Positions 2,771 through 63,919 of a DNA stretch of 64,000 nucleotides are shown one piece after another. Location of the stretch: the NCBI RefSeq assembly GCF_026151205.1, contig NC_087076.1:19275919-19339918 (forward strand), in the 5' to 3' direction. This DNA is from Bolinopsis microptera (lineage: Eukaryota; Ctenophora; Tentaculata; Lobata; Bolinopsidae). A program made the translations under genes and the position numbers. The notes under the pieces are model-generated. The model was given only the letters and a program-made list of their open reading frames with translations, did no database searches and was not told the origin of the DNA. Each line of letters starts with the position of its first letter. Positions within the stretch are counted from its first letter, which is position 1.

Positions 2771-2780
2771 CCAACGGTAA

Positions 2781-3766: not shown

Positions 3767-3811
3767 TTTAGACTGACCCAAAATCCACTCACTTCAGATT
3801 TAACCACAGCC

Positions 3812-4831: not shown

Positions 4832-4887
4832 AGAATCCAAACTTTTGAAATTCAGTTTTTAAATTATGATGTGTGATGAAATATTTC

Positions 4888-4893
4888 AATAAA
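4888..4893 (+). terminator. PolyA signal of the protease gene
   Basis: AATAAA lies 57 bp after the stop codon at 4831, in an AT-rich 3' UTR. Confidence 0.75.
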
Positions 4894-5838
4894 ATCTTTG
4901 CTTTTTAATGGCTCATTGATTATATCTAGATGGTAGGTAAATGTAAATGGTCCAAAAGCTAAGCTAAAATAATTACCTTAGTCGGAAATATTATGGGGGG
5001 TCTAATTTGGTGTGAAAGCGGCAATGTGGTTATAATTGCGAAAAACAATGTATCAATATTTGAGATTTGAGATTTTTTCACGAAAGGAAAGTCGCAGTTA
5101 AAATTGTGGGGCGGTCGAATTTGTTTTTTTTTCGGGCCAAAGAACCATATTTATAACAGTCCATATTTTAACACCATATTGTTATTTATAACACCCATAA
5201 TTCGTGACCCGACGAGCTAATCGACCGTCCTCCCACTCAGCAACGTCCTCCCACTCAGAAGTAGAAGAGAACCTCCTCTATTATTTATATATACAATTAA
5301 ACCAAAACCCATACATGGGTAAAGTGGACCGCTGCTGGTGTCTCCCTTTCCCAAACAAAAGAGAATGATTTCAATTTGAATAACCGTCCTCGAATGCAGA
5401 ATGATACCGAGAAAATGGTATCGAACATTAATTTGTGTCTCAGAAAATGATACCGAGAATGGTCGCTTGCTTTCCCTGTTCTGTGTTCTCTCGTACTTTA
5501 TGAAAATGTCTCCCAAGAATGACAAAAAGAACAAATATTTAGTGAAAGCATTGTGCTCAAATCTTAGTGAACGTCATGATCTTTTCCCATTATTATTTTC
5601 GAACTACAGTCCAGGTAGCAACAAATCCGCACTTCCAGATGTGCGATTTAAACTATGTGTGTTTCACACGCACTGTCGAACTTCCTTCCACTACCTGAAC
5701 TGAAGTTAGATACGTACAGACGCTTATGTGGAAATCTTAGGTGTATTATACCCAACAATGACCGGCGAACTGATAGCTACTTCAGAAGCAATGAAACTAC
5801 GATCTTCTAAATAAAAGAAAAAAATCTTAGGTATAGTA
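4894..5838. other. Intergenic; holds a dispersed repeat copy
   Basis: No gene recognised. 5319-5480 is similar to 1749-1905 and carries the word GATACCGAGAA three times. The frames at 5217-5534 and 5401-5703 overlap this repeat and look incidental. A word AAATCTTAGGT occurs at about 5733 and 5822, just outside the inverted-repeat boundary at 5839. Confidence 0.5.
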
Positions 5839-19250: not shown

Positions 19251-21554
19251 GAATTAAACTGGAATTAAACTGGAATTAAACTTGAAATTACCAAGGAGAA
19301 CACTAACGGACTCGTTTTGGCTATACATCAATTCATAAATAAGTTCATATATGAAACAAAAGCCGAATAAAAGTATGAAAATAAAATCTTAAAATTTAAC
19401 CGCGTTACAATATCACGAAGTGGAAATAAAATCAAATATAATACTATAATTTAAATGCTAATAGAAATTCTGGATGTGTGCATAAAAGCAAGTCCAAGGA
19501 GATATGTTAAACTACATAAGGTGATGAGACGTTGAAGGAGATGAGTAGGGGACGTGAAGCGAGGATTAGGACTTAATCATAGGATTTCGAAGGTTTGAAG
19601 AGTCTGTTAGGTGGTGATTGCTAGGACTTCATAGGAGGTGATAACTAGGACTTCTTTTCAGGAGGATGTCGAAGGTGAAAGGATTCTGTGAGGTACTTTC
19701 CAAATTCAGTAGCATGGAATGAGTTCATGATGGCCCCATATTCTTTGAGCATTATGAGGCTTTTAAGGTTGTCTGAGAGGTTGGACCGGAGGGAGTTGTA
19801 GCTGGGGCATTCATTTATAACGTGGTCCTCGGTTTCAAGGATAGGTGTTTCAAAGAATGGTAGTTCTTCGAAGAACCGCATGACGTCGGTGTCTGAGGAG
19901 CAGCAAAAGCGACATGTTTTCAGTGCTGTGTTGTAGCGATCTCCAGTGTAGCGACCTTTCTCAATCCTCAGATCGTGACTGCTAGATCGAAGTTTTGCAA
20001 TGTTAGCTCTTTTGACCCTGCATGGGAGCTGTAAGTACAGTTCTTCACCAAACTCAGCTTTGACCACAGTGTAGAATGAAATTTTAGGCTGGTTGTGAAG
20101 ATCCTTCTTCCAGTGGTTGACAAATGTTTCGTGTATGTGTTCACGAGCCGCAAGGGTGTGGGGTAGGTGTGGCTTAGCGACAGTGCTCGTCTTGATGATA
20201 GTAGACCATGCATCATACCAGGTAAGGTTCAGTTGTTTCTGTTCCTGAAATGTATGGTGCAAGAGGGTGTTCACGTTACCTACAACCGCTTGTGATGCTC
20301 TACAGAAGTAGGCAATACATTGAGGGAGGACGGTTACTGTCCAGGGGGTTCTACCTGTATCTCCGTAGCAGAAGTTGTTATTTGCCTTTTTGTGGACACC
20401 CAATATCCATTTAAGAATTTTCAAGTGAGTAGTTTCAAGAGCATCTTTTGCTGCTGCTTTGGGAAGACTCGCTTCTTGATTTTTTGAGAGGATGGCTTTC
20501 ACGATGTTGGTTGATGGCAGCCAAATAGGGCATCCATATGTGGCCACTGGCTTGACTAAGCTATCAATGAGTTTTAGCATCGTGCTAGTGGTAAGGGCTC
20601 TCGTGTCAATAGTTCGTCTCAGAGAGAAGAATGAGCGAAGAGCTTTCTTCCTAAGTTCATCGATTGCTTGCTTGAAGGAACCGTTCAGGGAGAACTGGAT
20701 TCCTAGATAGCAGTATTTTCTGACGGGTGCGATGTCCAAGTTGCCTAGTTTGAAGCCGTAAGCACATTTCAGTATTCGTGAGCTTGTGTTAAAGACCATC
20801 ACGCTGGTTTTGTTGATATTCACAGACAGCTCCCACTTTTCAGCATAGTCATGCAAGCAATTGAGCAGTTTCTGTAAGCTGCCCGCATCCAGCGCTAAGA
20901 GTACCAGGTCATCTGCCCATAGGAGGTGACTTACTTTTACACCGTTTAATAAAGGTACATCCAATTCCTCGATTTGTTCAAGTCTGATCGAGAGCTCGTG
21001 GATATAGAGTTTGAAGAGCTCGGGAGACATTAGGTGTCCTTGTTCTGTGCCGATGGTGACGTCAATGGCTGCGGATAGCTTTTGAATCAGCTTGACTCGG
21101 GTTGAAGAGTTCTTGTACATGTGGCTGATGCAGTCGAAGAATTTGCCTGTTATGCCCATGTTTCCCAGCTTGAACAGGAGTGCTTCCCTGCATACGCTAT
21201 CGAAAGCCTTGCGGTAGTCGACAAAGCAGGCAAAAAGTCGCTTCTTCTCTTTCTTGGTGTATTTCTCAATAATGGTATTCAAGGTGAGTAAGTGGTCGTT
21301 ACATTGGGCTCCCCTCCTGAATCCAAGTTGATACGGTCGGTCCGGACAGGCTGTTTCTCTAAATTCGATCAGCCGTTTAAGGAGAAGGTTCGAGAAGAGT
21401 TTGCCGAGACAGCTCCCAATAGTAATAGCCCGATAGTTATCAGGGTTTTGCCGGTCACCCTTTTTATGGAGGGGAGTTGTGATCGAGTTGTTCCAGGGGT
21501 AAGTTCCATGCTGGAGGCAGGCATTAAAGAGTTTTACCACGACGAGTTGAAGTG
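19251..21554 (-). mobile_element. 5'-truncated LINE (non-LTR retrotransposon)
   Basis: Target duplications of 6 bp (AATATG) flank the element. Its 3' end (left side) carries three copies of GGAATTAAACT, a short tandem tail rather than poly-A. It encodes the reverse transcriptase ORF at 19645-21540 and lacks an endonuclease, consistent with truncation during target-primed reverse transcription. Confidence 0.85.
19645..21540 (-). CDS. LINE reverse transcriptase, C-terminal 631 residues
   Basis: The frame is open to the truncated 5' end, and its first codon is GTG, so no true start is present. RT blocks in order: HKKGDRQNPDNYRAIT (25-40), FVDYRKAFDSV (106-116), GTEQGHLMSPELF (164-176) and the catalytic box LLWADDLVLL (206-215) with both aspartates. 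A thumb and connector region follows. The C-terminus has a CxxC...H...C pattern (CRFC ... EDHVINEC, about 536-577), a zinc-knuckle-like motif common at LINE ORF2 ends. No stop or frameshift interrupts it, so the insertion is probably young. The clade was not determined; the box order and terminal zinc motif suggest the jockey/I/CR1 group. Confidence 0.88.
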   Translation of the reverse strand: MVKLFNACLQHGTYPWNNSITTPLHKKGDRQNPDNYRAITIGSCLGKLFSNLLLKRLIEFRETACPDRPYQLGFRRGAQCNDHLLTLNTIIEKYTKKEKKRLFACFVDYRKAFDSVCREALLFKLGNMGITGKFFDCISHMYKNSSTRVKLIQKLSAAIDVTIGTEQGHLMSPELFKLYIHELSIRLEQIEELDVPLLNGVKVSHLLWADDLVLLALDAGSLQKLLNCLHDYAEKWELSVNINKTSVMVFNTSSRILKCAYGFKLGNLDIAPVRKYCYLGIQFSLNGSFKQAIDELRKKALRSFFSLRRTIDTRALTTSTMLKLIDSLVKPVATYGCPIWLPSTNIVKAILSKNQEASLPKAAAKDALETTHLKILKWILGVHKKANNNFCYGDTGRTPWTVTVLPQCIAYFCRASQAVVGNVNTLLHHTFQEQKQLNLTWYDAWSTIIKTSTVAKPHLPHTLAAREHIHETFVNHWKKDLHNQPKISFYTVVKAEFGEELYLQLPCRVKRANIAKLRSSSHDLRIEKGRYTGDRYNTALKTCRFCCSSDTDVMRFFEELPFFETPILETEDHVINECPSYNSLRSNLSDNLKSLIMLKEYGAIMNSFHATEFGKYLTESFHLRHPPEKKS

Positions 21555-21590
21555 AATATGTGAACGACCCCTAATAGTTATGGATCCTTT

Positions 21591-24561: not shown

Positions 24562-25517
24562 ATGGTATTGACGGTGATCAAACTGACGATCAGTTTGAGG
24601 ATAATTCTCCAGCTTTCCTTCGCTAATTTTCTCGGTAAGAGAATTTAAAATAAGATGTTTTACAAACTTATGATCCGAGGTTATACCAGGCTAAGCCCTC
24701 CAAATATTATTAGAAATGCTTTATTTATATATAGGAAATTCTTATCAATGATGAAAGGGTCTTTCGAAAAAATAAGAAAAAGGATAACACGGGACCCAAT
24801 TGATAAATTATGATCATAAATTCCAATACCGTTTTTCAACTCAGAGTGGAAGGTTCCCAAGACGAAATTTTCTTATGACCAGCACTTAAAATATTTGGAC
24901 CAAACCACACTTGCTTCACTAGACTTGGTACCTATCAACATTAAGTCTATTCTACTGATGAAACTAGAACAAACAGGTCCCTACGATCCAAACGGCGGCC
25001 GCGGCGATCTAGAGATATATTTCACGTTGTACAATCCGGATGGGAAATATCTTGCCTTCGGCAACATTTACTACAGGTAAGAAAAACGAGTTATGTTGTG
25101 GGCTATTGGAATTATTTGTCTATTAGTATTGAGGAAAACTTCATTCTGATGCATAATGGTAATGTTAAAGAACTTTTAAAATTTGATTTACTACACAGAT
25201 TTCGGGAGCACGGCGTAGATGGTGGTGGAATAGCAATTGGGATTTCCCGATATAATCGAAGATATTATAACAGTTGTATTCGCGATTACCTGGCCAACAT
25301 GGTCGCCTGGAACTTTTCTGCAGAGTCATATCGGAATAATGTTGTGGCAAATGGAACTATCAAAGTATTTACTAAAGGGAATGGTGGGAGTTTCGACCGA
25401 GGAGAGTGGATTGCAGCAGTTAAAGGAGCTACCCAAGTCATCATATCAATAGAGAAAGGGCTGAGTTATGTAAAGACTCAATACAGACGCGTAACGCAAG
25501 GTTTTACAATAACTTAA
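24562..25517 (+). CDS. Unrecognised secreted protein, copy A (3 exons, 207 aa)
   Basis: Inferred exons: 24562-24634, 24845-25076 and 25199-25517, with donors CTCG|GTAAGA and CTACAG|GTAAGA and acceptors AACTCAG|A and CACAG|A. Phases 1 and 2 match across all junctions and give 207 residues. Residues 1-22 form a hydrophobic signal peptide (ATGGTATTGACG start). The mature part, starting about WKVPKTKFSYDQ, is rich in beta-strand-like segments (LEIYFTLYNPDGKYLAFGNIYYR; WIAAVKGATQVIISI) and has a single cysteine. I recognise no family. PolyA signal AATAAA lies at 25574-25579. The paralog at 39851-40815 has the same three-exon structure. The first and last thirds are strongly conserved between copies, while the middle of exon 3 differs heavily. 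Extracellular function is an inference from the signal peptide. Confidence 0.7.
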
Positions 25518-25663: not shown

Positions 25664-26256
25664 TACGATAAGGATAACACTAACTCCCTTATCCACTAGG
25701 AGAGGAGGACTGTGTTGGTTACCCTGACGACTGCATAGCAGCACTGCTAGGTACAGAGAATAAATAATATCATGCAGTCGCTGTAAGATACAAAGGAAAA
25801 TACTAAAGTTAAAAAAGGCTAATTTAGGTTGGGGTAGTAGTAGTACAGGTGGTACAGGGTTCAGGGGTGCCGGTTTCCGGTGTATAGGCGAGGTTAACGG
25901 CAGGGCAGGGAAATTATTTTCAACCCACGGAACAAAAAAATTAAAAACAAAAAACAGAAAAGGAAAAACAGCTGATTAACTAAGATATCGTCAACATTAG
26001 AAACTCTAATCTCAGGACTAACTCTTATACCTGTCAGGATATCTCAATCTGTTCTCAGTCGAAATTGTGGATTATTCGAAAAAAAGGTAATTATATTCAG
26101 AACGATTATGTTTGTTTGCTTATAATTGAAACCCTAATTTATCATTTTATCAGTTCGTTAAACTTTGATCGTTACTGGGTGTTACAGCTGCTCTGGTGTA
26201 ATTTGTTTTTGTAAAATTTGTCAACAGTTGACAGTTTGGTAATCTCTATCTCATCA

Positions 26257-27127
26257 TATCTTAGTGAGGAGCCTATTTGAGCATTGCTCGGTTATATGGA
26301 GACCAGTCACAAAATCCCAGATAAGCAAGCTGGAGGGCCTCCAAAAGCGTGCTATTAAGTGGATTCTTCACGAGGAGTATATGAGTTATCCACCATCCAC
26401 ATACATTCAAAAATGCAGACAGCTGAAGATTATGCCGATTGAAGACCGCTTTGACTTCTTGGATCTCATCTTCTTCTTTAAAATTGTGAAGCAACATATA
26501 CCTGTCACTTTACCCTCATATTTGCAACCATTTCAAGGCCACTCAAGGCTCAGAAATAGTCACATGGACTCTCTATGTTTTGTAAGCTCTATCTCACCTC
26601 GAGCAAGCTCCAACGCTTTTGCCAAGAATTTCTTCTATAGGACCCACACTAAGTGGAATCACATTCCTCTAGATATCCGTGAGATAGAGAGTATCACTGA
26701 TTTTAAAAGTAAACTTTCCACTTACATGTGGGGGAAAATTATCCCGGTGGATTCGGACTCTGAACTTGACTATTCAATAGAAACAAATCCGTAAAATAGT
26801 TTATTCAAGATTATCTATTCTTGCTGTCTGCATTCACATATTTCTCAATTTCATCTCACAGCACAATATTTTATGAATTGATTGAATGGGTGTGTGATTT
26901 TGTTTAAAGTAACTTATTACAATTTTATAAGGGCCCATGCTTGTGCAGGAGCTGCATTTGCACTCAATATCTGTGTTTTGGTGACCCTCAGGTCCTTTGG
27001 TTACATACATTTTGTCCGAGACAATTTCAACTTTGACAATCCATGCTTAGAGGACAATATTATATTTAACTAATTCATTGTGTAAACTTGTATGTAATTG
27101 ACTGATTTGAAAGATTTCAATAAAAAA
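26257..27127 (+). mobile_element. 5'-truncated CR1-like LINE fragment
   Basis: Comparison with copy B (CTCATCAGACGATC at about 41644) gives the empty site. The insert begins after ATCA at 26253-26256 and ends before ATCA at 27128-27131, a 4-bp duplication. The 3' end is AATAAAAAA. It contains the RT C-terminal frame at 26264-26794. Confidence 0.85.
26264..26794 (+). pseudogene. LINE RT C-terminal fragment (176 codons)
   Basis: An uninterrupted frame matching the C-terminal domain of the LINE at 33145-34272: EHCSVIWRPVTKS against ENCSIIWRPCNKS, then GLQKRAIKWIL, YPPSTYIQKCR, FFYRTHTKWNHIPLDIREI. It is a truncated, non-functional piece but not otherwise broken, which implies recent insertion. 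Confidence 0.85.
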
Positions 27128-32690: not shown

Positions 32691-33144
32691 TTTTTATTTT
32701 ATTTTTTATTACGTAAATTTTTTATTACGTAAATACTTTTCAAATTTTACAGAGTACAGCAATAGATGAATATAAAATAGAATCGTTCAAAATATCACCC
32801 CCATCTGTAAAATATGATGGGCACCCAAACACGGTAAACACATAGTGAACTATGTCCGCAGTAACTTGGACCCATTACATCGAATCAATCTAAATCCAAA
32901 AATTTATGAAAAACTATTTAATAACAAACAAATCCATGGTGAATAACTGTGGATATATTAATATAGTCAAAATTGGTATTTCAATACGTCAAATTCCAGA
33001 TACATTAGATACAGGTCTGATATGGTCATTAATGTGTGAGAAGGTGTGCGGGTGAAGTGTGATATGATGTTGAAAGTATAGGAAGGTAGATAAAAAAATT
33101 AATAAAACAAAAATAATAATAATATGGGGAGCAAAGAGACTAGG

Positions 33145-34272
33145 CTAGGCTGTTGTTTCACTATCCAATAAACATTTCCATAGATGCTTAGTGACCTCAG
33201 CTTTGAAAAGACTAGTAAACACAATCTGTCTTACCTGTAAAGGGAGTCCATTCCACAGTATATGAGTTCTGTAGAAAAATGATTTTGCCAGTGGGCTATT
33301 TGAGGTACATAAGGTGTGTGAATTCTGACTTAACTTAGGTAAAATTGATGACACAATAGACAGACTGTCGAGGTGGCAACGTCTTAGTCGAGAAGTCCCC
33401 TGATATAAAGAGAGATAGTGAGGCAGCGATACAGGAATTAAATTGTTCAGAACTTTGTGGAAAAAAATAAGATCATTCAAGTCAAACTTTTGAGACAAAG
33501 GGAGAATGTCGACAAGCTTGCACTTTTTGACATATTGCTCAGGTGGATAACTGCGGCCCTCTTCAGACAGAATCCATTTAATAGCTCTCTTTTGGAGACT
33601 TTCTAATTTATCACTAAGTGATTTATTACAAGGGCGCCAAATTATGGAGCAATTTTCGAATTGGCTACGAACCAGGGAGAGGTAAAGCGCCCGGCGACGC
33701 TTCTGATCAATGACAATATGGCCATTTCTTCTGACCATACCAAGTTGTTGGCAGGCCTTAGTATAAATTCTGTCGCACTGACTATTCCAACTTAGCTTAG
33801 GAGTAACATCGACTCCAAGATCTTTTTCTAACTCTACATACACAAGAGGAGAGCCATCAAGATTATATGCGAATGGAGGAGATAAAGATGGTTTTCCTGA
33901 AACAATAAGCACTTTACATTTTGCTGGATGGAATCGCATTTTGTTTCTTAGTGCCCAGTCAGAGAGATAGTCGATATCCATTTGCAAATTAGTATTATCA
34001 GAAGATGAATGTATTTTACGCCAGATTTTTGTATCCTCGGCATACAAAACAATATCAGTATTATCCGAAAGGCCAAGAGGAATATCATTGATAAACAATA
34101 CAAAAAGTAAAGGACCAAGGATAGAGCCCTGGGGGACACCAGAATTAACTGAGAGGGTAGATGACATCTCATTACCAATAACCACTATTTGGTAACGGCA
34201 TTGAAGGTAATTGGTAAGAAATTTGAGAAGTGTACCATCAATGTTATATAAGCTTATGAAGAAAGATATCAT
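33145..34272 (-). pseudogene. LINE ORF2, second half of RT and C-terminal domain
   Basis: Continues the RT of 34244-35377 after a frameshift. GVPQGSILGPLLFVLFINDI (45-64) is the CR1/jockey-type box. The catalytic motif is YAEDT (77-81) instead of FADDT, so the first catalytic aspartate is a glutamate (codon near 34036). The C-terminal domain matches the fragment at 26264-26794. It is interpreted as inactive. Confidence 0.88.
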
Positions 34273-35377
34273 GATTTACAGAATCAAATGCCTTAGCAAA
34301 ATCAAAATACACAACATGATTGATAATGTTTTCGTTAAGAGACAATGCCAGGCTATCACAAAAGTCAACCATATTGGTTGTGCATGACTTGTGCTCTAAA
34401 AAACCATGCTGTCTGGGATCAAGAAGGGTACTTGTCAAAGAAAGCAGTTTACGTTTAACAATGCGCTCAAAAATTTTCATGACTAAACAAGTAAGGGATA
34501 TTGGTCTATAGTTTTCAACCTCACTTTTCTTACCTTTCTTAAATATTGGGACAACATTTGCAAGTTTCCATTCTTCTGGAATGTAGCCGCTGTTGTAGGA
34601 TCCACGAAAAATGCATGTTAGAGGGTAAGCTAAACCTACGGAACAATTTTTTAGAATTTTACCGTGTATGCCATCTGGTCCCTGGGCTTTATTTGAATTA
34701 ATATTTGAAAGAAGCTTACGAACATCCCGATGATCGAAGTCAATATCAAAATCAACATCATTGACATAGAAGATGTCAGTGTCATAAAGTGAAGGATCCG
34801 AAAACTGGTTATAAAAGAAAGAATTGAAAAGTTCAGCTTGATCTTTTGGTTTGAACCGAAGCTGTCCAGAATAACTAACACAATTAGGAATACGGCAGGA
34901 GTTAGATTGATACTTAACATGTGACCAAAACTTCTTAGTTATAAGCGCTGGATCATCACTATTGAAAAGATTGTCTCTTATTTTGGCTGATGAAAGCCTC
35001 TTAAAATCTTTACGGCTAGTAACAAACTTTAACTCATCAGAAATAGAACCAGAAATTTTAAATTTAGCTCTGAGTCTATCTTTTTTACGGCATGAAGAAA
35101 AAAGTTCACTATCGAACCACGGGGGTTGGAACTCTGATTTAATAGTTGCTAAATTCATAATGCAGTCTTTAACTAACTTCCAAGACGAATCAGGATCTAT
35201 GCATTCTAGGACTTGCCAATTAATCGAGCATAATTCACGATTAATCATGTCCCAGTTTGCTTTCTTAAAATTATAGATTTTACGTTTAGGAGTTTTCTTA
35301 CGGGAAAAGGAGCTTTTAATTAAAAAAAGTGACAGGAAAACGATCAGATTTGCACACGGAATGAGGATCACAGACAT
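34244..35377 (-). pseudogene. LINE ORF2, linker and first half of RT
   Basis: Contains NKAQGPDGIHGKILKN, EEWKLANVVPIFKKGKKSEVENYRPISL and YFDFAKAFDSVNHD, the early RT blocks, with a long linker before them (FWSHVKYQS, FNSFFYNQFSD). It joins the endonuclease frame across a T-run near 35322-35328, where a one-base length change accounts for the break. Confidence 0.88.
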
Positions 35378-36353
35378 TCAAGTTATCGATTGTGTTATCA
35401 TAATTACTGAGAAGAATGTCTAATGTATTACCACTTTTATGGGTGGGTGATGTGATCAACTGGGAGAGAGAAAGATCACTGAAAGAATCTATGAAGGATT
35501 GCTCGATAGGTACGGTACTGGATGAAGATAGCCAGTCAGTATGGGGAAGATTAAAATCACCAATAACATAGATTTTAGGGGGATTCTTTTTGGAAACTAG
35601 CTTGCGAATATAACTAACTATGACATCATGATTAGGTAACCCAAGAGTTCCTACTCTATAACAAGTACAGATTACAATACTCTCTTTGTTAGGAAAAGCA
35701 ATTTTAACGGCAAGCATTTCGGCACCTAGGCTAACTGGTAGTCGGGTTGTAGTGGCGTCGAGATCAGACCGAACAGCCAAAAGAACACCACCTCCATTTT
35801 CCCTAAACTTTTTAGGGTTATTAGGATCTTGAGGATGAGTCTTTCTCGTGCGGTCATTGCGGAAGATTTCATATTGAGAAGAAGGAAAGATTTCGTTGCT
35901 AGAAATAGACTTTTTGAGCCATGTCTCATTTAGGGCAATTATGTCAGGCTGCTCTATGTTAGCAAAGGATTGAAGTTCGGAAATCTTATTACCATCAAGA
36001 AGGGGATGGGAGGAGCTTAGATTACTGAAAGGAATAAGACCTTGGACATTTTGGTAGAGTACAGATAGGGAGTTGGGACCTGGATTAAGCATAGAAGGAT
36101 TAACAAGAGTTATCAAAAGAAAGTTAAGAGAGAAAACCCAAAGAATGAATAAAGAGACTAGACGCCTGAGGCGGCTGGAATACTTGACTCTATTCATCTT
36201 ACCAGGGAGAAGGACATTTCTTATAAACCATGATGAGATAATTACAAAGAAAAGTTTGATGTGGGAGCAAGCAAGAAATGGTATAAGATAACGTGGGCTG
36301 TCAAGGAGTAGAGAGGAATGAATATTAGAATCTAGGGGGAATACGGTGTTCAT
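35316..36353 (-). pseudogene. LINE ORF2, AP-type endonuclease domain
   Basis: The hydrophobic N-terminus is followed by an apurinic-like endonuclease: YQNVQGL, LNETWL, RNDRTRK, GGGVLLAVR, CYRVGTLG, YVIGDFNLPHTDW, LDILLSN. The last motif is SDRFPV where active enzymes have SDHxPV, so the catalytic histidine is replaced by arginine (CAT to CGT type change near 35341). Confidence 0.87.
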
Positions 36354-36743
36354 GGACCTAGTTATAGTCGTGGAGAGAAGAATTGGGAGAAAGTATCAAA
36401 GTAAGTCATGATGAGAGAATAGAAGAGAAACATATGATTATGAGAATTGTGGTTGATGTGTGGAGTGTATGGGGACTTGAATGTGTAAATTTTGTTAGGT
36501 ATAAACGTGTTGATATGTATATGTGCATTTCTTGACTATGTACGAGGCCTTTTGCATGCAAAAAGACCTATTCTAAGTCTAAACGATTCATTGTCTAACA
36601 TATGGGAAAATGGGCAGTGACCGAATGTACCTGAAATAGGAGGCATAAAATTGAGAAAAAGATTAAATCAGAGGTTTGTTTGAGTTTTAATTTTAGGCAC
36701 AACGTCTTAATCAAAATATTAAATGAAAGAAAAGATCCAAGAT

Positions 36744-37838
36744 TTAAATTCCCAGAAGATTATTTACAACCCTGTCAAAACTGTGTTCGTTTACAACAAA
36801 CTTAAGCCAAGTGGACAGTAAACCTACTCCTCTCATGTTGAGATGAAGCCAATCATGGTATAGAAGTTCATTACAGGATCTAAAGTCTCGAGTTAAAAAG
36901 TCTGAGAAACAGTCTAAGAACACGCAATTATTATTTAGGCATAAGTCTTTAAGTAGATTATTAAAATCTAGAACATTCTTTGCTATGTAGGAATATAAAC
37001 ACTTAATAGGAAGACAACATTGGATAATTATAATTGCAGCGGGAAATAACTGCTTAGTGGTGTCAATTAAGACAGTAAGATACTTCCTAAGGAACTGAAC
37101 CCCATACTTAGAATGTTTTATGTCATTTGTACCAACACTCAATATAATTTTTTCAATATCGTCAGCTTCTGCAGCTGCATGAGTTTTATGAAAATGCTGA
37201 ATGTTTTCAGTGATGTCTCTAATTTTTGCACCACTTTGGGACACATTGATTACTTTCCTTCCCCGGAATCCCAACTTATTTGTCCGTACGAATTTTGTCA
37301 TTGACGTACCAAACAGGACAGTGGTTTTCCTGCTCTTCGGTTTTCTTGGAGCATTTCGGTAGTAAAGCGGGGTTGGTGTTGAGGTTGAGGTGGTGGTGGG
37401 CGGCATAGGAATTGTAGTGAGGACAAACTGCTCCCTGACTACATTTGTATCTGTCTTCGGTATCTGGCAGCGAAAAGATAAGCTATACCGAGTCTCCTTA
37501 GCTGATCTCTCTGCACAAACCTTGTGAAGACAATATTCCTGACACCCCGGTTTCATAATATACAAACTACAGTCCTTTGGGGTGATATAGCATTTACTGT
37601 TACATCGCTTATCCCCATTTTCTGGAATTATGTCGAGGGTCCTCTCAGCTCCAAATAAAACTACATAAATACCTTGCGACTGGTCAAGAGACACCTTGTC
37701 GTCGTTGTGGTACCTAGTTGCACAAGAACCAGACTTGTACATGCTTGCTAGGCATGAGTTTAGCTTGCAGCCAAACTTGGAGTTGATATCATGCATAAGT
37801 TCTGATATCCCAGGATAATTTAAAATATTATACAACAA
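36744..37838 (-). CDS. LINE ORF1: AlkB-like dioxygenase fused to SGNH esterase
   Basis: The frame of 364 codons has no ATG at its left limit and stays open to about 37892, so the true N-terminus is lost. Residues about 25-125 fit the AlkB branch of 2-oxoglutarate/Fe(II) dioxygenases: LNSCLASMYKSGSCATRYHN then DDK with H44 and D46, GIYVVLFGAERTLDII, SLYIMKPG, a third metal ligand H105 in YCLHKV, and ETRYSLSFR (R117 and R123) like the family's RxxLTFR. A Thr/Pro linker (140-165) leads to an SGNH hydrolase-like domain: VLFGTSM (block I), SVGTNDI (block III), DWLHLNMRG (block V, D329 and H332). An SGNH esterase in ORF1 is known for CR1-type LINEs; the AlkB-like part is the unusual addition. All key residues are kept although the element's ORF2 is dead. 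Function (repair or demethylation of element RNA) is inference only. Confidence 0.8.
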   Translation of the reverse strand: MLYNILNYPGISELMHDINSKFGCKLNSCLASMYKSGSCATRYHNDDKVSLDQSQGIYVVLFGAERTLDIIPENGDKRCNSKCYITPKDCSLYIMKPGCQEYCLHKVCAERSAKETRYSLSFRCQIPKTDTNVVREQFVLTTIPMPPTTTSTSTPTPLYYRNAPRKPKSRKTTVLFGTSMTKFVRTNKLGFRGRKVINVSQSGAKIRDITENIQHFHKTHAAAEADDIEKIILSVGTNDIKHSKYGVQFLRKYLTVLIDTTKQLFPAAIIIIQCCLPIKCLYSYIAKNVLDFNNLLKDLCLNNNCVFLDCFSDFLTRDFRSCNELLYHDWLHLNMRGVGLLSTWLKFVVNEHSFDRVVNNLLGI

Positions 37839-37910
37839 ATTATAATTGTGTAATAAACATTTATTGTAGTGTAGGATTGTTTGAATTTCTATTTGCTAAT
37901 TCATATATTA

Positions 37911-39850: not shown

Positions 39851-40815
39851 ATGGTATTGACGGTGATCAAACTGACGATCAGTTTGACTTTGGGGATAAT
39901 TCTCCAGCTTTCCTTCGCTAATTTTCTCGGTAAGAGAATTCAAAATTATATGTTTTATAAACTTATAATCAGAGGTAATACCAGGCTCTCCAAATAAAAT
40001 TAGAAATATATTATTTATATAGTAAATTCTTATCAATGATGAAAGGATCTTTCGCAAAAATAAGAAAAAGGATAACACGGGACCCAATTGATAAATTATG
40101 ATCATAAATTCCAATACCGTTTTTCAACTCAGAGTGGAAGGTTCCCAAGACGAAATTTTCTTATGACCAGCACTTTAAAGATTTGGACCAAACCACACTT
40201 GCCTCACCAGACTTGGTACCTATCAACAAAAAGTCTATTCTACTGATGAAACTAGAACAAACAGGTCCCTACGATCCAAACGGCGGCGATCTAGGGATAT
40301 ATTTCACGTTGTACAATCCGGATGGGAAATATCTTGCCTTCGGCAATATTTACTACAGGTAAGAAAAACGAGCTATGTTGTGAGCTATTGAAATTATTTG
40401 TTTATAGAGGAAAACTTCATTCTGATGCATAATGCTAATGTTATAAGGACTTTTAAAATTGTGTTTACTACACAGATTTCGGGAGCACGGCGTAGAAGAT
40501 GGTGGAATATCAATTGGGACTGCCCGATACAAATATATCATTTGGCGAGATTGTTGTTTTAACAAATACCTGGCCAACATGGTCGCCTGGAAATTTTATG
40601 TGGAAGGATATTCTGGATATGAGGACATGCTTATGGCAAACGGAACTATCCAAGTATTTCTAGAAGGGTATTCAGAACTGGTAGGGGATTTAGAATTTAT
40701 GCATTGGATTGCAGCAGTTAAAGGAGCTACCCAAGTCATTATATCAATAGAGAAAGGGCTGAGTTATGTAAAGACTCAATACAGACGCGTAACGCAAGGT
40801 TTTACAATAACTTAA
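39851..40815 (+). CDS. Unrecognised secreted protein, copy B (3 exons, 214 aa)
   Basis: Paralog of 24562-25517. Exons: 39851-39929, 40133-40358 and 40476-40815; the same splice sites and phases give 214 residues. The signal peptide is two residues longer (an extra LTLG-type stretch). Exon 2 differs by a 6-bp deletion in the Gly/Arg-rich turn. In exon 3, residues around RYKYIIWRDCCFNKYLANMV and YSGYEDMLMANGT differ strongly from copy A and add two cysteines, while the last 36 residues (from WIAAVKGATQ) are identical. Introns and 3' UTR are also highly similar. No family recognised. Confidence 0.7.
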
Positions 40816-53858: not shown

Positions 53859-55772
53859 TTAATCACAGTGGTAATGCTGCACTGGTTTGAGATCGACTTT
53901 GTTGTCGATTGTTCTATCCAAGTGGGTTATCCACCAGAGTCTGCTCAATAGACCCTGCATGGCTGGCACAAATCTACTCAAGTGTTGAGCTAAACGGTCC
54001 TGTTCATCGTGACTGTTTAATCCGAGGATCATCCGCTCAACGGCTTTTATGAACTCATTTGAGCGGTTTCTCACGAAGATTGATGCCACCCGAATGCGAT
54101 GGCGGTGTGCCCTAGAAGGTTTCGCTTTTGAAACTTTCAAAGGAACCAACTCTTCAATCTGAGTAGTGCGAGATTCATTAGTTAGTTTCCTGCATGTTTC
54201 ACAACCCAGTAGTTGCAGCACCGTTGCTAGCCTACGGAGGACGTTTACTGTCTCCCTTATGGTTTTTGGCGCACAATCTAGCACGTCAGCAACAGCCCGA
54301 TTTACCTTGCGTGCTGTGCTCTTAGCTAGGTCGTTAGGGAACTCGTTTGCCTTCATTAGACCCTCATCCGTCCTCTGGAGGTCAATCACCAAATAATCTG
54401 GTGCGGGAGGGAGTTTGAGTGACAGGAGTGCGTTCATCTCCCAGCCAGTCACTTCCAGCAGATTGGTGGTGCCACTTGTGTAGTTACATTTCTCCACCAA
54501 TTCTGCCATCGTTGCCCTTAGATCCCGAATCTTAGCATCCAAACCCTCCGATTGATTTGGTTCGGGGGTCTGTGGCAAAGATGTGGTGTCTGGAGAAGGC
54601 GTTGAAGGTTGAACGGCCGCTCGTTTAGCACGCTCAGTAACTTCCCGTCTTTTCTCGAGTTGAGCCTTCTTGAGGTCCTTTTCTAGCCTCTGTTCCTGAT
54701 CATCGAATTTCATTTGAACACTGATTCTTTTGGTTTTGAGCACCTTAAGATTTCGGTCTATTTCATCCAATTTCTCAAAGTGGTTCGTCTTTAGTTCAGC
54801 GATTTTGCTCAACATATTACCGATCCTATGATCGAGTGGATCAGGGTTTCGGGCGGTGTGGGTTCGCTTTGAACCCGAGGGGATGTTATCCAGAGTGATA
54901 TCCAGAGTGTCGTTATTGACAGCTGCTCTATAACCCCTCCCAAAACCTGGTAGAGGGGAAGTGGATCGTGTTTTAAATCCGTTTGAAAGGCGAACAAGAC
55001 CGGGGGTTCTAGGCTGTTTATAGCGGGGTTGCTCATAAAACCCGTCTAAAATGCGTGCCCAGTTAACAGGGATGGCGGAGTCGGTTTTTATCATGTCACT
55101 GGTCAAGGAATAAAATCTTGCGATTTTCTTCGGCATACTAATCGACGGATCAAAACTCAAAATCCTGGATATAGCCCCGTCTCTTTCTCGGAGAAAAGAC
55201 TCCCACATCGCCGCTCTCCTCCACTCCAGACCGGGATATTGATCCCCCATGGTAGACATGTCCATGATGAGTTGACCCCATACATCCGTCTCATGCCGAT
55301 CAATTTTCCCCGGGTGTATCTTTCTAACCCGAACTAATTGGTCGGCTAAAGCCAACAATTCTGCTCTGTTAGCTCTGCAGGGTCCCCAAGTAATGAGATT
55401 CAGTAGATAACTTGATAATATATCTAGATCCTCCTTGGCCGTGATAGAACCTGCCAACTGTTCCGCGGGCTTTCCCACATCTGGTTGTTGGTCATCATCC
55501 ATTGATTTTAATGAAAGCCCATCGGAGTCCTCTTGTAGTTCCGTTTCACCTTGCAGTATTTCTTTCATGTCAATGGTGTTGGGAAGTATGTCCACCGCTG
55601 TGTCCCCCAGGAGACTTTCCTCCTCATCACCAGTAATTGTGACAGATTCAACTGTGCAAACCTGTTCCACGGTGTCCATCACCTCGACTGTCGGTTTTAC
55701 AACAGATTGCGATTGAAACTGGTTTTCAATGGTACATCCCGAATTAGAATTAGATTGAGGTTCACAATCCAT
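53859..55772 (-). CDS. Extra ORF of the LTR element, function unknown (637 aa)
   Basis: Located downstream of the envelope-like ORF and before the 3' LTR, an uncommon place for a long gene in Gypsy elements. The frame is open to 55805; I take the first ATG at 55772 (context aaaATGG). Layout from that Met: an acidic, Asp/Glu-rich N-terminus (1-110), a helical Trp-containing region (115-250), a basic Ser/Pro linker (255-310), a strongly charged probable coiled coil (about 315-388), a Pro/Thr spacer, and a helical C-terminal region with a basic SKAKPSRAHRHRIR stretch (about 548-561). There is no signal peptide, membrane segment, zinc knuckle or enzyme motif that I recognise. It could be a structural, regulatory or nucleic-acid-binding accessory protein; this is open. 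Confidence 0.75.
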   Translation of the reverse strand: MDCEPQSNSNSGCTIENQFQSQSVVKPTVEVMDTVEQVCTVESVTITGDEEESLLGDTAVDILPNTIDMKEILQGETELQEDSDGLSLKSMDDDQQPDVGKPAEQLAGSITAKEDLDILSSYLLNLITWGPCRANRAELLALADQLVRVRKIHPGKIDRHETDVWGQLIMDMSTMGDQYPGLEWRRAAMWESFLRERDGAISRILSFDPSISMPKKIARFYSLTSDMIKTDSAIPVNWARILDGFYEQPRYKQPRTPGLVRLSNGFKTRSTSPLPGFGRGYRAAVNNDTLDITLDNIPSGSKRTHTARNPDPLDHRIGNMLSKIAELKTNHFEKLDEIDRNLKVLKTKRISVQMKFDDQEQRLEKDLKKAQLEKRREVTERAKRAAVQPSTPSPDTTSLPQTPEPNQSEGLDAKIRDLRATMAELVEKCNYTSGTTNLLEVTGWEMNALLSLKLPPAPDYLVIDLQRTDEGLMKANEFPNDLAKSTARKVNRAVADVLDCAPKTIRETVNVLRRLATVLQLLGCETCRKLTNESRTTQIEELVPLKVSKAKPSRAHRHRIRVASIFVRNRSNEFIKAVERMILGLNSHDEQDRLAQHLSRFVPAMQGLLSRLWWITHLDRTIDNKVDLKPVQHYHCD

Positions 55773-56078
55773 TTTATCCGTTTGAAATAAGATTCCTTGC
55801 GTCAATTCGGTACAGTTACAAATTCGAAACTAATTGCAATTTCGAACAATTTGAAAATGAACAATCCGATAGCGTAGACACTGCTGTGCTGGCACTGTTC
55901 ACGTGATACCTCGTTCAATGTTAAACGAGGTGGTTAAACAAGTAACTGCAGTAGTCAAAACATCTCTTGACCTTTAACACAGCCTTACGTGCTAAAGTGC
56001 AGTCTCTTGACGGGAATGGGAACAATACGTGAAGCGAAATTGCCCTTTTTGACAATTCGCAAACGGAATTAAAGAATC

Positions 56079-57821
56079 TCAAAAGGAAGCACACCTCGGT
56101 GAGCCCAATTTAACGAGCTCAACTTGACTTCCGCTTTGCCGTGCTCCAACCTGCTGAGGAGTTTGCAATTTCTTTATCCAAAATTGCAAGTATCCCAGCC
56201 AAACTAAAATTGCCACAACCAATACCAGCAAAATAGTCAATGTGACCCAGTCAATCGAATGTTGCTTCTTCTCTGCGAACAATCTTTCGAAAACTGGGTT
56301 AATCAAGTCTTCCAAAGATTTGTTGTATTTGTCACATACGTTCTTGAACACATTTGTAACATTATGACTGTCCAAGTAGCTCATTAAACTTTTGGTGTCT
56401 GGTGACAAATTGGAGATCTTTAGCTCGACGTGTTCCATGTTTGGAGACAAGATTTTCTTGTTGCCTATCTGTACGGAACTTAAACCCTTCCAATACAGGT
56501 ATGTAGTACCGTATTTAGACAGTTTAACGTTTGAAGTCATTCCGTCTAAATCGGCCGAAAAAGTTTTGCCCTCCATGTTGTTGCGGAGTAAAATGCCAAC
56601 CTGCGACATCACAAACTGATAGCTGTGCAGACAACTATGCCTCTCAGCGACACAGCTGTTACTATTCTCCTGAATGCAGGACGTCTCGTTTGAGAAGTCT
56701 TCGTATGGACACACATATAAATCATTATGTTTATTGCATCTGTCCAACGATATAGGCAAAAATTCTGCCTGATCTTTCCTCTTATACAGAAAATCAGGAA
56801 ATTTGTGATAAACACAAGTTTCCCCAACCAAGTGGGTACCAACTTGTGATACTCGATATAAATTTACAGTATCCACCTCTCTGACCGTGGGTATCATTAG
56901 TACAAAATGAGCGTACAAGAGATTTTCTTCTACCTCAATTAGGCTCATCTTAGCCAACGAGTATAGAAAGGTAGGACTTTTTTCAAATATGGTACCCTGA
57001 AGATCTCTGCTTTTTAGGATTATCTTCTTCAGTAAGTCCAAATTGAGCATACGCGGAGAGAGGAGTAAGGAATTTTCTCCATTGATGGCAGTCCATAACG
57101 TGTCATCGATCTCCTTCGTATCGTCCATAAATCCTTGCCTAAGTTTGGCGCTCCATTGGTTATAGAAAACTGAGCAGGTTTCCTCTCTATCCACTACTAA
57201 AGTCAAAGCCATAGTAGTGTCGCGCATGAACCCTACAACATGCTCACTGAGACTTTTTATCTCAGATTGCTCTTGCAAGATTCCATGGCGGAGAAGGTCG
57301 ATCGCATCGCTGTTACGGTCGACATGCTTGTTTAGTCGATAAATCTGAGCCTCAGAGATACCCCCCATGAACAAGGTTAAACCCATATTTCCAAGGAAGC
57401 TTAGAAGGCCCCTTTTTGACCTCCGAGTACTCCCTTCAGAAGTTCTGTTCAGGGGCGTGATAAATGGTTTCAAGAGTGCCTTTTTACTCTTAAGAAACGC
57501 CTCCGATCTTATCCTGTAGTACTTGTTGTTGGTTTCCCAAACTGTTTGGTAAAATTTTGAGGTGGAACACTTCTGGTGTAATCTGTGAACCACAGGATTG
57601 GAGAAAGCAGCTTCCACGTCTCCAATCCTGCTAATGTTAGGGAACTTGATAATGACAGAAATCATAATTTCATTCTCTGAACTGACTGACTTACCCAACT
57701 TTTCAATTTTGGCGCCGATATCCCTGAATACAACGTCCTCTGGCGACCCGGTGGCACGATGTGTTTCTATGCGTGTCAGCTGGCACACGACGATGAGGAA
57801 TACATAAGGAGCATATGTCAT
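56079..57821 (-). CDS. Envelope-like fusion glycoprotein ORF of the LTR element (580 aa)
   Basis: A type I membrane protein layout: hydrophobic signal peptide (about 1-14), ectodomain, a basic furin-like site RRSKR at 133-137 followed at once by a Gly/Leu/Phe-rich fusion-peptide-like segment (138-155), a heptad-like helical region after it, many cysteines in the second half, a membrane span at about 525-548 and a 31-residue tail. A cleavage site directly before a fusion peptide near the N-terminal third resembles the F-type envelope proteins shared by insect errantiviruses and baculoviruses; that family link is inferred from layout only. The frame is uninterrupted. It starts 300 bp after the pol stop, so expression probably needs a spliced subgenomic RNA. 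Confidence 0.82.
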   Translation of the reverse strand: MTYAPYVFLIVVCQLTRIETHRATGSPEDVVFRDIGAKIEKLGKSVSSENEIMISVIIKFPNISRIGDVEAAFSNPVVHRLHQKCSTSKFYQTVWETNNKYYRIRSEAFLKSKKALLKPFITPLNRTSEGSTRRSKRGLLSFLGNMGLTLFMGGISEAQIYRLNKHVDRNSDAIDLLRHGILQEQSEIKSLSEHVVGFMRDTTMALTLVVDREETCSVFYNQWSAKLRQGFMDDTKEIDDTLWTAINGENSLLLSPRMLNLDLLKKIILKSRDLQGTIFEKSPTFLYSLAKMSLIEVEENLLYAHFVLMIPTVREVDTVNLYRVSQVGTHLVGETCVYHKFPDFLYKRKDQAEFLPISLDRCNKHNDLYVCPYEDFSNETSCIQENSNSCVAERHSCLHSYQFVMSQVGILLRNNMEGKTFSADLDGMTSNVKLSKYGTTYLYWKGLSSVQIGNKKILSPNMEHVELKISNLSPDTKSLMSYLDSHNVTNVFKNVCDKYNKSLEDLINPVFERLFAEKKQHSIDWVTLTILLVLVVAILVWLGYLQFWIKKLQTPQQVGARQSGSQVELVKLGSPRCASF

Positions 57822-58121
57822 CCTGTCCTACCCTGTGCACAGAGTGTCATGTCCAAGTCATACGTGAATCGCTATAGCTGGTAATACTTAAAGTCTGTTA
57901 ATTAACTTGAAAACCTGAAATTCCGGCCGGAAGGTTATCAAATAACAAACATTAGTATTGATTTTAGAATTGGAAACATGATCTTATGCACAGTAGTAAT
58001 AACAACACCGGGATCAGTAAGTACAGTGCAGTACGGGTGGTTAGTGAGTGTTCAGTGAGGCTCGTGAGTGCCATATTATAATTTGCCTCCAGAACCTCTT
58101 GCATCTACGAGGAGGTAAAAT

Positions 58122-61100
58122 CTACTTTTTTGACTTGACTTTCTTCTCCTTGGATGAACTATCCTTTGTGTCCGAAGCCTTGCTACCAACATTCGTTCTA
58201 GGCCGAAGGTTGTAGCCAGTCTTGCTCCTATCCGAGCTAACGCTATCAGGAGCAGTTGAATTATTGGACTTATCACCGTCCTTGCTGGCCTTGGCACCCC
58301 CGCTAGTCTTTTTAGCGGCACTACTCTTATAGAACAACCCTGATCTGGTTGTACCAGATGTAGGATTAGAAGAAGATCTATTTCCCCTTCTAAACCTCTC
58401 CTGGTCTGTGATATCCTTCAAGGAGATTGGTGTGTCAATCCCGCTGAAGTGCAATCCTGATCGGCTAGGGCCAGGATTATCTGATTTTCCCGCATCCAAA
58501 CTACCGGCAGATGTTGAAGGTTGCACTTCTCCTGCAGTATCCTCAACCTGTCGGTCAACCTGTCGGTCAGTATCCTCAACCTGTCGGTCAGTTTGAGCTT
58601 CATCAAGAGCTTCCTGAGCATCTCCAAATTCTTGCTCGCTCATTCCGGAAGTTTCCAGATCTGCTGAACTTAAAGCAATACTTTTATCACTTACAGTGTT
58701 CTCTGAGAGGTCAATCTCAGTTGCTGTAGTAGCTTCACTTTCAATAGCTGTTGTGGCTCCTGAGCTGGGATTAAGTGAAGTCTTCTCGAACTTCTGTCTC
58801 TTCTCAGCTATTCTACGGCTTTTTCGCCGTGGCGGAGCTTCCCAGGTAAGAATAACAGAGCCCTCGTCTGAAGAGCTATCATTTTGACGAGATTTTTGTT
58901 TCACTGGCTGTATTTTCTCCGAAATGACAGTCTTATCTGGGTTGTAAGCAATTTCAGAATGCTTGTTGATCCGATAAGGCTTCATCTTTGAGATGCTAAC
59001 AACCTTTTCCTTACCCTCAACTTCAACAACATAATTGTGGTCATTTAAAGACTTCACAACTTTGTACGGACCTCTCCACGTATCAGCATACTTGTGCTTC
59101 GGCCATAGTTCAAGCAGAAAGCACCAGTCTCCTGTTTTGTAGTATGGACCCCGCACTCTCTTGTCATACTGAGTAGCCATATACTTGGCTCTACGCTGAG
59201 AATTGTCTCTTGCAGTTCTCGTAATATGAGACACCTTTTTGTACAAGTCATAGGCTGCCTTTTTCACGTGATAGTCTTGATCAGTGTCATTTAATAACAT
59301 CTGATTTATTCTATCCTTGTCTTTGATGAACAAATCTCTAGGCATATGAAGTTCTCTTCCATAAACCAAAAAATTTGGTGACAGGCCAGTTCTTGTACAA
59401 GCCAAGCTATTCAGAGTAAATACAATGTATTTTACATATACATCGTAATTTTTCCAATCAGTGTCAGTTAGGGTAACTCTGAAGCTCTGATTTAGCTTAC
59501 GATTCATGGCTTCAGCTTTTCCATTTGATTGGGAAAACTTAGGGGTAGTTTTCAGGTCCTTGATGTCAAAAGCTTTCATGACTGCCTTCCATAGACCACT
59601 AGTAAATCCCGAGCCCAGATCATGCATGACGGCTCCTGGCATGCCATTTTTTAACACCCAGTGTTCCAACACCGCTCTAATGCTAGCCTCAGTACCGGTT
59701 GACCTCACCGGTACACACACTAGGTAATTTGTAAAGTGGTCACATATCGTTAGAAGTGCGACAGTACCCCTAGCTGTTGGAGTTTTGCTTGGCTCTAAAT
59801 GGTCGATACTTATACACTGGTTAAATTCAGTGTATACTATTGGTTTTAGAGGGGCCCGCGAAAATGTGGTAGGCTGCTTTGCCCTACCACATGTGACACA
59901 ACTACCAATGTACAGTTCAAACTCTCTTTTGAGTTTGTAGAAATAAAAATGTTTCATACATCTCTCTATACACGGTTGTACACCGGCGTGGCAGGTGTCT
60001 ACAGTGTCATGAAAAGAGTATAAAACACGTTCAACTAATGTACAGGGCACCACGATAAGAGACCTCATATCTCTTGATACCGTGTCATACCACTTCCTGT
60101 AAAGAACTCCGTCTTCCATTTTTAGAAGCTCAAAGTCTTTCCAGTAGTGCTGTAATTCACTGGGCTGACTACGAGGGTTGAACTCTCGCTCATTCGGTTT
60201 CCCATCGTCGTCCTTGATCCAACTGATGACAGTAGAAAGAATACGATCATTCGAATATTCTTCCTTGATGTCCTCAGATGACACAGGCTTGCTGCCATCA
60301 GCTTGAGTGATCCTCAAGATCTCATTTACCTGAGAATGCGATTCATTCTCCGTTTGAGTTGCTGATTCCTTAGTAGCGGTTTCATAACCGTGTCTGCTAA
60401 GAAAGTCAGCCATACCCATTTCGGAGCTCTGCCCTGCCTGGTGCTGAATTAAAAAATTGAACGAAGCAAGATCTGCTAATCTCCTCTGAATATACGAATT
60501 CTCGTTTCTGAAAATCTTTGATAATGACAGTAGAGCTTTGCAATCTGTGTACACAACAAACCTGGTTCCCTGAAGATAGATCCTCCAGTGCTTCAAAGCC
60601 CCATGAAGCGCTATTAGTTCAAGTCTGGTTGCACCAAATTTCTGTTGGTGCTTGGGCACAGCTCTCGACCAGTAAGCGATTACACGACGGGTGCCGCTAA
60701 TCTCTTGAGTGAGAACTGCTCCTTGACCCCGCTTTGAACTATCAATAGTAACCTGATAGCTCCTATTTTTATCAGAGACATCAGGTACCCCAAGAACTGG
60801 ACTACTTGTCAAAGCTGCTTTTAGCTTATCGAAGCTTTCCTGGCATTCCTTGGTCCAGTTGAATTTTTTCCCTTTTTTGAGCAAATCATACAGTGGTGCC
60901 GCCATTGTAGCAAATTGTCTCAAAAATCGGCGATAATAGTTCATGCTTCCAAGGAATTTCTGTACCTGTTTGACTGATGTAGGGGCTGGGAGGGATTGGA
61001 TTGGCTTTATCTTTTCTTGATCCAGTTTAACACCATGTGAACTGACCTTGTATCCAAGCCAGAGGACTTCAGTCTGGAACATTTTTGACTTGTCCGGATT

Positions 61101-62771: not shown

Positions 62772-62797
62772 GCTGGTAGATGATTTACAACCTCTTA

Positions 62798-63919
62798 TTA
62801 GTTTAAACGGTCCCTATGCCCTGACGAAGAAGTATTTGTTATACTACTTTTTGCGTAACAGTTCCTCTTCAGGTGTCCCTTGCGATTGCAAGCCCAGCAC
62901 CTTCTCATTTCAGAACGAAAAGAGTTCGACTGTCGCCCTTCCACCATGGTATCCCTCCTCTGGCCCCTCGTTACTGATGGACTCCTAGCACGTTCTAGAG
63001 ACGTTCCTCTTTCTCTAGGCCGGTAATTGGAGGTACGTGGCCAGCGGTCTCTGCTACTCCGCCAAGGTGAGGAGGACCTGTTTGATCCTCGACTGTCATC
63101 ACTTCCGTGTCGTGGTCTATTCCACTGTGAAGGACTGACAGGGACTGGCTCACCTTGTTTCTTTTGACTTTCATTGTCAATGAAGAAAACCTTAGAGCCT
63201 TTCAAGATTGAAGCTGTGCTGACTTCACCTTCGAACATATTACTTATTTTCTCGAGTTTCTTGGCCAACTTTAGCGCTTCACTGAAAGTTGTGACTGAAC
63301 TCTCATTCAACTTTCGTCTTACCTCATTGTCTTTAACACCACGCATCAGTGCCAAAAGACAGTTTTCGTCTATTGAGTCCTCGCTGGTGAAAGCAATTGT
63401 AGCTTTCTCCCTGAGACGATGAGAGAAACTTGTTATACTCTCACCGGCTGCCTGTTTACACTCAAGGACCTCGTTTTTTAATGGTACGCTATCTGTACCA
63501 TAAACTGCTTCCTTGTAAATCTCACAGAAAAGAGAACAATTACGCTTCTCGTCATCCCCGAGATTTACAGATTTCAACGTCGAGTAAGTTTCATCATCGA
63601 CGTGTTGAAGAAAGAAAAGATGCAACTGGCTATCATTAATCTGAGTAATCTGTACATACTCCTGAAAACGTTCACAAAACCTTGAGAAATTTTCTCCTTT
63701 CTCAAACTTCCTGAGTTTTGTGACCTGTCCTAGTTTAATTCTAGACAGGGCACTTGAGATTTCGGTGGCACGACTTGCCTCATGCTCCCCCGATTCCACC
63801 TTCACCTCTGGTTCTGGCAGTAACTGGGCTATGCCAGTTTTAAACTGCGTTGAGGTTTCATCCTCCTTTTCCAGCAACGCCTTGACTTTTTCCAAAAGTT
63901 GCTCAACTGATTCTCCCAT
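62798..63919 (-). CDS. Gag-like protein of the LTR element (373 aa)
   Basis: An alpha-helical capsid-type region (about 75-235: KFEKGENFSRFCERFQEYV ... LMRGVKDNEVRRKL) is followed by an Arg/Ser-rich nucleic-acid-binding stretch (about 265-335) and one CCHC zinc knuckle CX2CX4HX4C at 341-354. This is the usual layout of Gypsy gag proteins that package element RNA. Start ATG at 63919. The frame is intact. Confidence 0.9.
   Translation of the reverse strand: MGESVEQLLEKVKALLEKEDETSTQFKTGIAQLLPEPEVKVESGEHEASRATEISSALSRIKLGQVTKLRKFEKGENFSRFCERFQEYVQITQINDSQLHLFFLQHVDDETYSTLKSVNLGDDEKRNCSLFCEIYKEAVYGTDSVPLKNEVLECKQAAGESITSFSHRLREKATIAFTSEDSIDENCLLALMRGVKDNEVRRKLNESSVTTFSEALKLAKKLEKISNMFEGEVSTASILKGSKVFFIDNESQKKQGEPVPVSPSQWNRPRHGSDDSRGSNRSSSPWRSSRDRWPRTSNYRPRERGTSLERARSPSVTRGQRRDTMVEGRQSNSFRSEMRRCWACNRKGHLKRNCYAKSSITNTSSSGHRDRLN

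Follow-up and report, generated by a model that had tools for sequence, protein, structure and literature searches.

A LINE family in the genome of the ctenophore Bolinopsis microptera encodes an ORF1 protein in which an AlkB-type Fe(II)/2-oxoglutarate (2OG) dioxygenase domain precedes an SGNH esterase domain, and AlkB domains with SGNH-like companions of unequal clarity recur in further LINE types and in a Helitron. The family came to light in a stretch of 64,000 nucleotides of contig NC_087076.1 (the window), in which a preliminary description had noted this combination; the observation is confirmed and extends beyond what was claimed, and its interpretation is supported, with protection of the element's RNA or cDNA as a possible function. 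That the first domain is an AlkB domain is practically certain, and it is probably catalytically active. The full explanation that we prefer, namely a demethylase fold closest to ALKBH2 and ALKBH3, joined to an esterase and serving repair, has about an even chance of being correct.

The window copy lies on the minus strand, as do all of its parts given below, at 32730..37828, and it is 97.1% identical over 5128 columns (blastn) to an uninterrupted relative in locus L031. Of an element of about 5.6 kb, it lacks roughly the first 500 bp. Residues 1-22 of its 383-amino-acid ORF1 frame (36744..37895) are therefore flank and not element, and its AlkB domain lacks the N-terminal part; in the family, ORF1 has about 460 amino acids. 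The earlier designation as a LINE ORF1 thus holds in that an ORF2 with endonuclease and reverse transcriptase (RT) adjoins, but the frame as described included flank and a 5′-truncated ORF1. The AlkB domain (residues 27-146, 37458..37817) contains the whole HxD...H...RxxLxFR set described earlier: the iron ligands H63 and D65 (37701..37709; each in 95 of 95 database rows, 6 gaps), the third iron ligand H124 (37524..37526; 99 of 99, 2 gaps), and R136 (99 of 100) and R142 (100 of 100) in RYSLSFR (37470..37490), which we take to be the 2OG-binding motif. The Thr/Pro linker was likewise correctly recognised (37332..37457; modelled with low confidence, pLDDT below 50 at residues 157-173 and 175-179), and is followed by the SGNH domain (residues 189-371, 36783..37331) with S198, G222, N257, D348 and H351. 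ORF2 is broken into three overlapping open frames, which hold an AP-type endonuclease (35316..36395, PF14529 3.2e-11) and the N-terminal (34244..35377, PF00078 4.1e-11) and C-terminal (33145..34275, PF00078 2.4e-10) parts of the RT. The split ORF2 and Lys67 (37695..37697), in place of a Glu that is shared by all 28 near copies and by 94 of 95 database rows, mark the copy as decayed, and it is probably inactive.

Both domains were recognised by sequence and by structure. Searched against the PDB as a single sequence, the window ORF1 matched human ALKBH3 with residues 27-146 (E 8.6e-8; ALKBH2 only at 1.1), the esterase of ZfL2-1 ORF1 with residues 193-361 (2e-4) and a bacterial esterase with residues 248-358 (1.4e-5). 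An ORF1 profile matched the ZfL2-1 esterase structure 4c1b at 1.5e-12. Among Pfam families, PF13472 (SGNH) was found at 6.3e-12, and the only dioxygenase family was PF03171, below cut-off at 1.7e-4. The predicted model contains an AlkB and an SGNH fold as well as N-terminal helices at residues 3-10 and 15-35, and the modelled AlkB fold of the transposon ORF1 resembles ALKBH2 and ALKBH3 over 178-182 residues, with the HxD...H...RxxxxxR ligands that define the AlkB family. The ALKBH2/3 class ranked above the m6A class by both fold and sequence. The Ser, Gly, Asn and Asp-x-x-His blocks of an SGNH esterase are present together with the fold, the Asp in only 80 of 96 database rows. By hand count, PF13532 (AlkB) and PF13472 occur together in 70 of 101 database proteins; phage records searched with tblastn gave no match. 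Ligand counts refer to the 101 database rows only, as rows from the own genome had been picked by a ligand-containing pattern, through which L029, L036 and L038 fell out; alignment A1 comprises the window ORF1 and 100 of the 101 rows (P0047 omitted), and A2 comprises 73 of 101.

At an E-value limit of 1e-3, the window ORF1 has at least 108 matches in the 264.7 Mb genome, a lower bound with 107 of 843 candidates scored. Among the matches listed, 31 other copies, 94-98% identical, span AlkB as well as SGNH with no stop codon, and in 26 of these the open frame has at least 472 amino acids. An ORF2 start lies downstream in 28 of the 29 stop-free copies inspected with flanks (L028 being the exception), and in 27 of the 28 this ORF2 stays open for at least 440 amino acids to the end of the flank, that of L019 being shorter. 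Two copies combine a full ORF1 with an ORF2 frame of 1178 amino acids, and in a third the ORF2 frame runs uninterrupted as far as the locus extends. The family has moved recently, since two of its copies share 99.3% identity over 5.1 kb. With ORF1 directly 5′ of ORF2, dispersed copies, 5′ truncation and an A-rich 3′ end, these elements have the hallmarks of LINEs, and an AP-type endonuclease together with an RT was found in the window pieces and in L033, L034, L036, L052 and L054. The genome contains many copies in which ORF1 is joined to ORF2, and with the AlkB matches in sequence and structure neither of the two outcomes that the preliminary description named as refuting it came about. Potential target-site duplications amounted at most to 6-base matches at the window copy and L039, and none was seen at L031. 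The label CR1-like given earlier was not adopted because the 3′ ends are A-rich: a short A-rich tail closes the element in both copies read, L031 and L039. The tandem octamer TTCTGTGA, which CR1 carries instead of poly(A) in birds according to the accessible part of PMC2612034, is absent from the same two ends, a narrow test given the avian origin of the octamer.

Four further LINE types encode an ORF1 with AlkB and SGNH parts and, downstream of it, an ORF2 frame with a length of 1162-1184 amino acids; they are represented by L033, by L034 (with L037, in which ORF2 is broken), by L035 and L038, and by L036. PF13532 exceeded its cut-off in the related ORF1s of L033 (4.6e-15), L034 (1.8e-13), L035 (4.4e-17), L038 (4.8e-16) and L047 (5.7e-23), which agrees with the AlkB-like domain proposed earlier, and stayed under the Pfam cut-off in L032, of the window's own type, and in L036. 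PF13472 was over cut-off in L032, L033, L035, L036 and L038, and below it in L034 (5.3e-6). The pair is unequally clear across types because several of them match SGNH only below cut-off or not at all. In the L047 type (with L057; ORF2 frame of 998 amino acids, RT recognised by eye) SGNH stays below cut-off at 8.3e-6, as it does in the L052 type (ORF2 frame of 1003 amino acids) at 3.7e-4, next to AlkB at 1.1e-18. In L054 and L055, AlkB exceeds the cut-off (2.1e-21 and 5.6e-19) and SGNH has no Pfam match at 0.01, SGNH-like motifs being visible by eye or sub-threshold. A PHD-like finger precedes AlkB in both, sub-threshold in L054 (0.0059) and seen by eye in L055, where none was matched; the L055 ORF2 matched an RT and gave no endonuclease match at 0.01. 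Wherever both domains matched in the LINE ORF1s read, AlkB comes before SGNH. In a tree of ORF2 (without L057), a single group unites the window type with L033, L034, L035/L038 and L036, at 44-48% identity between types, L035 and L038 being 90% alike, and L052, L054 and L055 are distant from this group (23-30% identity). A 3′ ORF2 fragment of the L035/L038 type was seen by eye in the window at 26243-26794 (plus strand). Other AlkB frames listed genome-wide, with lengths such as 593, 611, 676, 777 and 843 amino acids, are perhaps more element types.

The most surprising part is a related AlkB domain in a Helitron. PF13532 has at least 151 matches in the genome, over cut-off in all those listed and again a lower bound, with 150 of 587 candidates scored. 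Among them, L045/L051 holds a frame of 2459 amino acids with an SGNH-like part (4.2e-7, just below cut-off), AlkB (2.1e-22), DUF6570 (2.8e-14), Helitron_like_N (2e-22) and PIF1 (6.6e-21), the rest of its helicase seeming to lie in another frame. In a second copy, L053/L056, a single frame of 3388 amino acids comprises AlkB (3.2e-21), Helitron_like_N (7.3e-23) and PIF1 (4.7e-22), with an SGNH-like match of 1.2e-4 on a cut-off part. Both copies thus have the Rep (Helitron_like_N) and PIF1 helicase of a Helitron, and their order, SGNH then AlkB, is the reverse of that in the LINEs. The L056 frame (2-5149, plus strand) seems by eye to have a cysteine-protease-like end, for which there was no such Pfam match. 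Separately, L043 contains a host-like AlkB frame (1063-1950, plus strand, 2.9e-28) and, 0.7 kb 3′ of it, a weak SGNH-like frame (2662-3438, plus strand, 3.3e-4); these neighbours could be another element or a coincidence.

A branch with support of 100/98 separates 40 transposon rows from three host rows in the AlkB tree, which comprises 142 domains and draws on 28 of 101 ORF1 rows and 99 of 120 listed domain matches (165 found); the bootstrap had not settled (0.975), L036, L055, P0085 and the host ALKBH2 row have long branches, and the host names ALKBH2 (L041) and ALKBH3 (L042) were assigned by eye. Twelve database rows fall on the transposon side and are taken for putative ORF1 fragments. The AlkB domains of the Helitron and of L034 are sisters (100/95) and stand outside the AlkB group of the window type, L033, L035/L038 and L036 (100/99), whereas the L034 ORF2 lies within the window-type ORF2 group, adjoining L036 (88/98). 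Because its AlkB sides with the Helitron and its ORF2 with the window group, L034 points to an exchange of ORF1 modules among elements. The SGNH tree is weak, with long branches meeting and a host row placed with the Helitron row, and we therefore draw no inference on a joint arrival of both Helitron domains. A Ser occupies, in 12 of 12 transposon AlkB domains (A3), the position at which the three host rows carry the Asn of RxNLTFR; over the 40 transposon rows it is Ser in 35 and Cys in 5. At the sequence level this residue sets the transposon AlkB apart from ALKBH2/3, but it is no mark of transposons because 77 of 99 database AlkB rows share the Ser.

Purifying selection on AlkB is seen in two related pairs of elements. 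Between L035 and L038, dN/dS was 0.17 for AlkB (bootstrap 0.10-0.27) and 0.105 for ORF2 and, with other domain limits, 0.19 for AlkB, 0.11 for SGNH and 0.50 for the linker; the two Helitron copies gave 0.19 for AlkB (0.09-0.36). Within the window family, AlkB values of 0.60, 0.74 and 1.50 rest on 1-2 synonymous changes, too few to speak of constraint, and dS was saturated in the pair with PHD-type fingers.

Plant RNA viruses carry AlkB domains and offer a parallel case; our structure search matched viral AlkB proteins, among them one of the giant virus Pithovirus LCPAC304 (E 3.6e-11), and viral replicases or polyproteins, for example of Grapevine virus T (2.9e-8), the large polyproteins with low TM-scores. 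A second parallel is the ALKBH5-like AlkB of the orchid element Gypsy_Pa_2799, also retrotransposon-encoded with conserved ligands, which the accessible text of PMC9289625 places in an additional ORF of a plant LTR element and on the ALKBH5 branch. In contrast to that case, the domain described here resides in LINE ORF1s and a Helitron, is accompanied by SGNH and is closer to ALKBH2/3, from which it differs by its own side of the tree and by Ser or Cys for the Asn of RxN. The closest known LINE proteins are the esterase-type (type IV) ORF1s of CR1, L2 and RTEX elements such as ZfL2-1, with a C-terminal SGNH domain and an EN-RT ORF2 downstream; they are not known to have the AlkB domain found here upstream of the esterase and, as far as PMC3905857 was accessible, have coiled coils and linkers and no structural RNA-binding domain. 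The accessible text of PMC5408684 describes a GDSL ORF3 in bdelloid Vesta LTR elements and Athena PLEs, an esterase ORF common to unlike retroelements, whereas here AlkB is joined to the SGNH part in LINEs and a Helitron. The available sections of PMC4120745 name PHD, RRM, CCHC, Tnp22 and esterase as ORF1 domains and contain neither 'alkb' nor 'dioxygenase'; among other papers on ORF1 types and accessory domains, 'alkb' is absent from the accessible parts of PMC5408684, and 'alkb' or 'dioxygenase' from those of PMC6431247 and PMC6338049. Among the matches listed from the open-access literature, a scope outside of which lie RepBase, most subscription journals and bioRxiv, the orchid LTR element was the sole case of AlkB in a transposon, and none concerned a LINE or a Helitron. 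The AlkB-SGNH plan of a LINE ORF1 was thus not found in print within this scope, in line with the earlier remark that no AlkB partner was well described for LINEs.

ALKBH2 and ALKBH3 act on m1A and m3C, and Helitron transposition passes via single-stranded DNA. In the model that we propose, ORF1p would travel with the element RNA in an RNP, AlkB would supply the nucleic-acid binding absent from other esterase-type ORF1ps and would strip pairing-face methyl lesions (m1A, m3C type) that block reverse transcription or copying of single-stranded DNA, and the esterase may mediate contact with membranes or lipids, a role suggested for ZfL2-1. A LINE and a Helitron would both gain because of a reverse transcription of 5-6 kb and a single-stranded DNA stage, respectively. 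A repair-class substrate is an evenly balanced proposition; a benefit to the element through template unblocking is somewhat less probable. We only tentatively suggest that AlkB and SGNH form an exchangeable cassette of retrotransposons and rolling-circle DNA transposons, with AlkB as a transposon-encoded template-repair enzyme that would clear the element's single-stranded RNA or DNA of methyl lesions that block copying.

Packaging of LINE RNA is the presumed role of ORF1 proteins, and how esterase-type ORF1ps without a structural RNA-binding domain bind RNA is an open question in the accessible part of PMC3905857. AlkB might accordingly be mainly a nucleic-acid-binding, gag-like part of ORF1p with catalysis secondary, and its location 5′ of the esterase is one where a binding domain could act. 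We consider this rather unlikely: across divergent proteins the iron and 2OG ligands vary hardly or not at all, more strictly conserved than the SGNH Asp, and binding alone would not demand such constancy. Slightly less probable still is an m6A eraser that conceals element RNA from epitranscriptomic surveillance by the host, a role proposed for the orchid Ty3/gypsy AlkB, which demethylates m6A in vitro (accessible text of PMC9289625). The ALKBH2/3 class came first by fold and sequence, a related AlkB also sits in a DNA transposon, and human L1 is aided by m6A and suppressed by ALKBH5 according to the available part of PMC7873242, which makes concealment less likely. 2OG oxygenases are versatile, and the constant order of AlkB and SGNH in LINEs would suit a joint action with the esterase on another substrate such as a protein or lipid; this is improbable, as the best matches are nucleic-acid AlkB homologues and the reversed order in the Helitron speaks against tight coupling. 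A chance motif match or an assembly chimera is refuted by the independent proteins with both domains, the ligand conservation and the PDB and structure matches.

A nucleic-acid-acting enzyme fold in esterase-type ORF1ps makes the RNA-binding question testable with purified protein and one point mutant. As the Helitron also carries a related AlkB, mobile elements may bring along their own means of clearing methyl damage from their single-stranded copies, and their propagation may be limited quite generally by damage to, or methylation of, such intermediates.

The window contains other elements and genes. An LTR retrotransposon with separate frames (53859-63919, minus strand) has a 373-amino-acid frame in gag position without Pfam match, a pol with protease, RT, RNase H and integrase, an env-like protein with a weak match to paramyxovirus Fusion_gly (E 2.8e-4), and another frame of 656 amino acids without Pfam match. 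An RT of a different lineage lies at 19645-21570 (minus strand, PF00078 1.9e-26; 23-28% identity to the LINE ORF2s), and an uninterrupted papain-family cysteine protease with an I29 propeptide at 3755-4831 (plus strand, PF00112 1.8e-39). Two related frames at 24945-25517 and 40447-40815 (plus strand) share by eye the end IAAVKGATQVIISIEKGLSYVKTQYRRVTQGFTIT and are perhaps a local duplication, and a direct duplication of about 200 bases was seen by eye at about 38519 and 38804.
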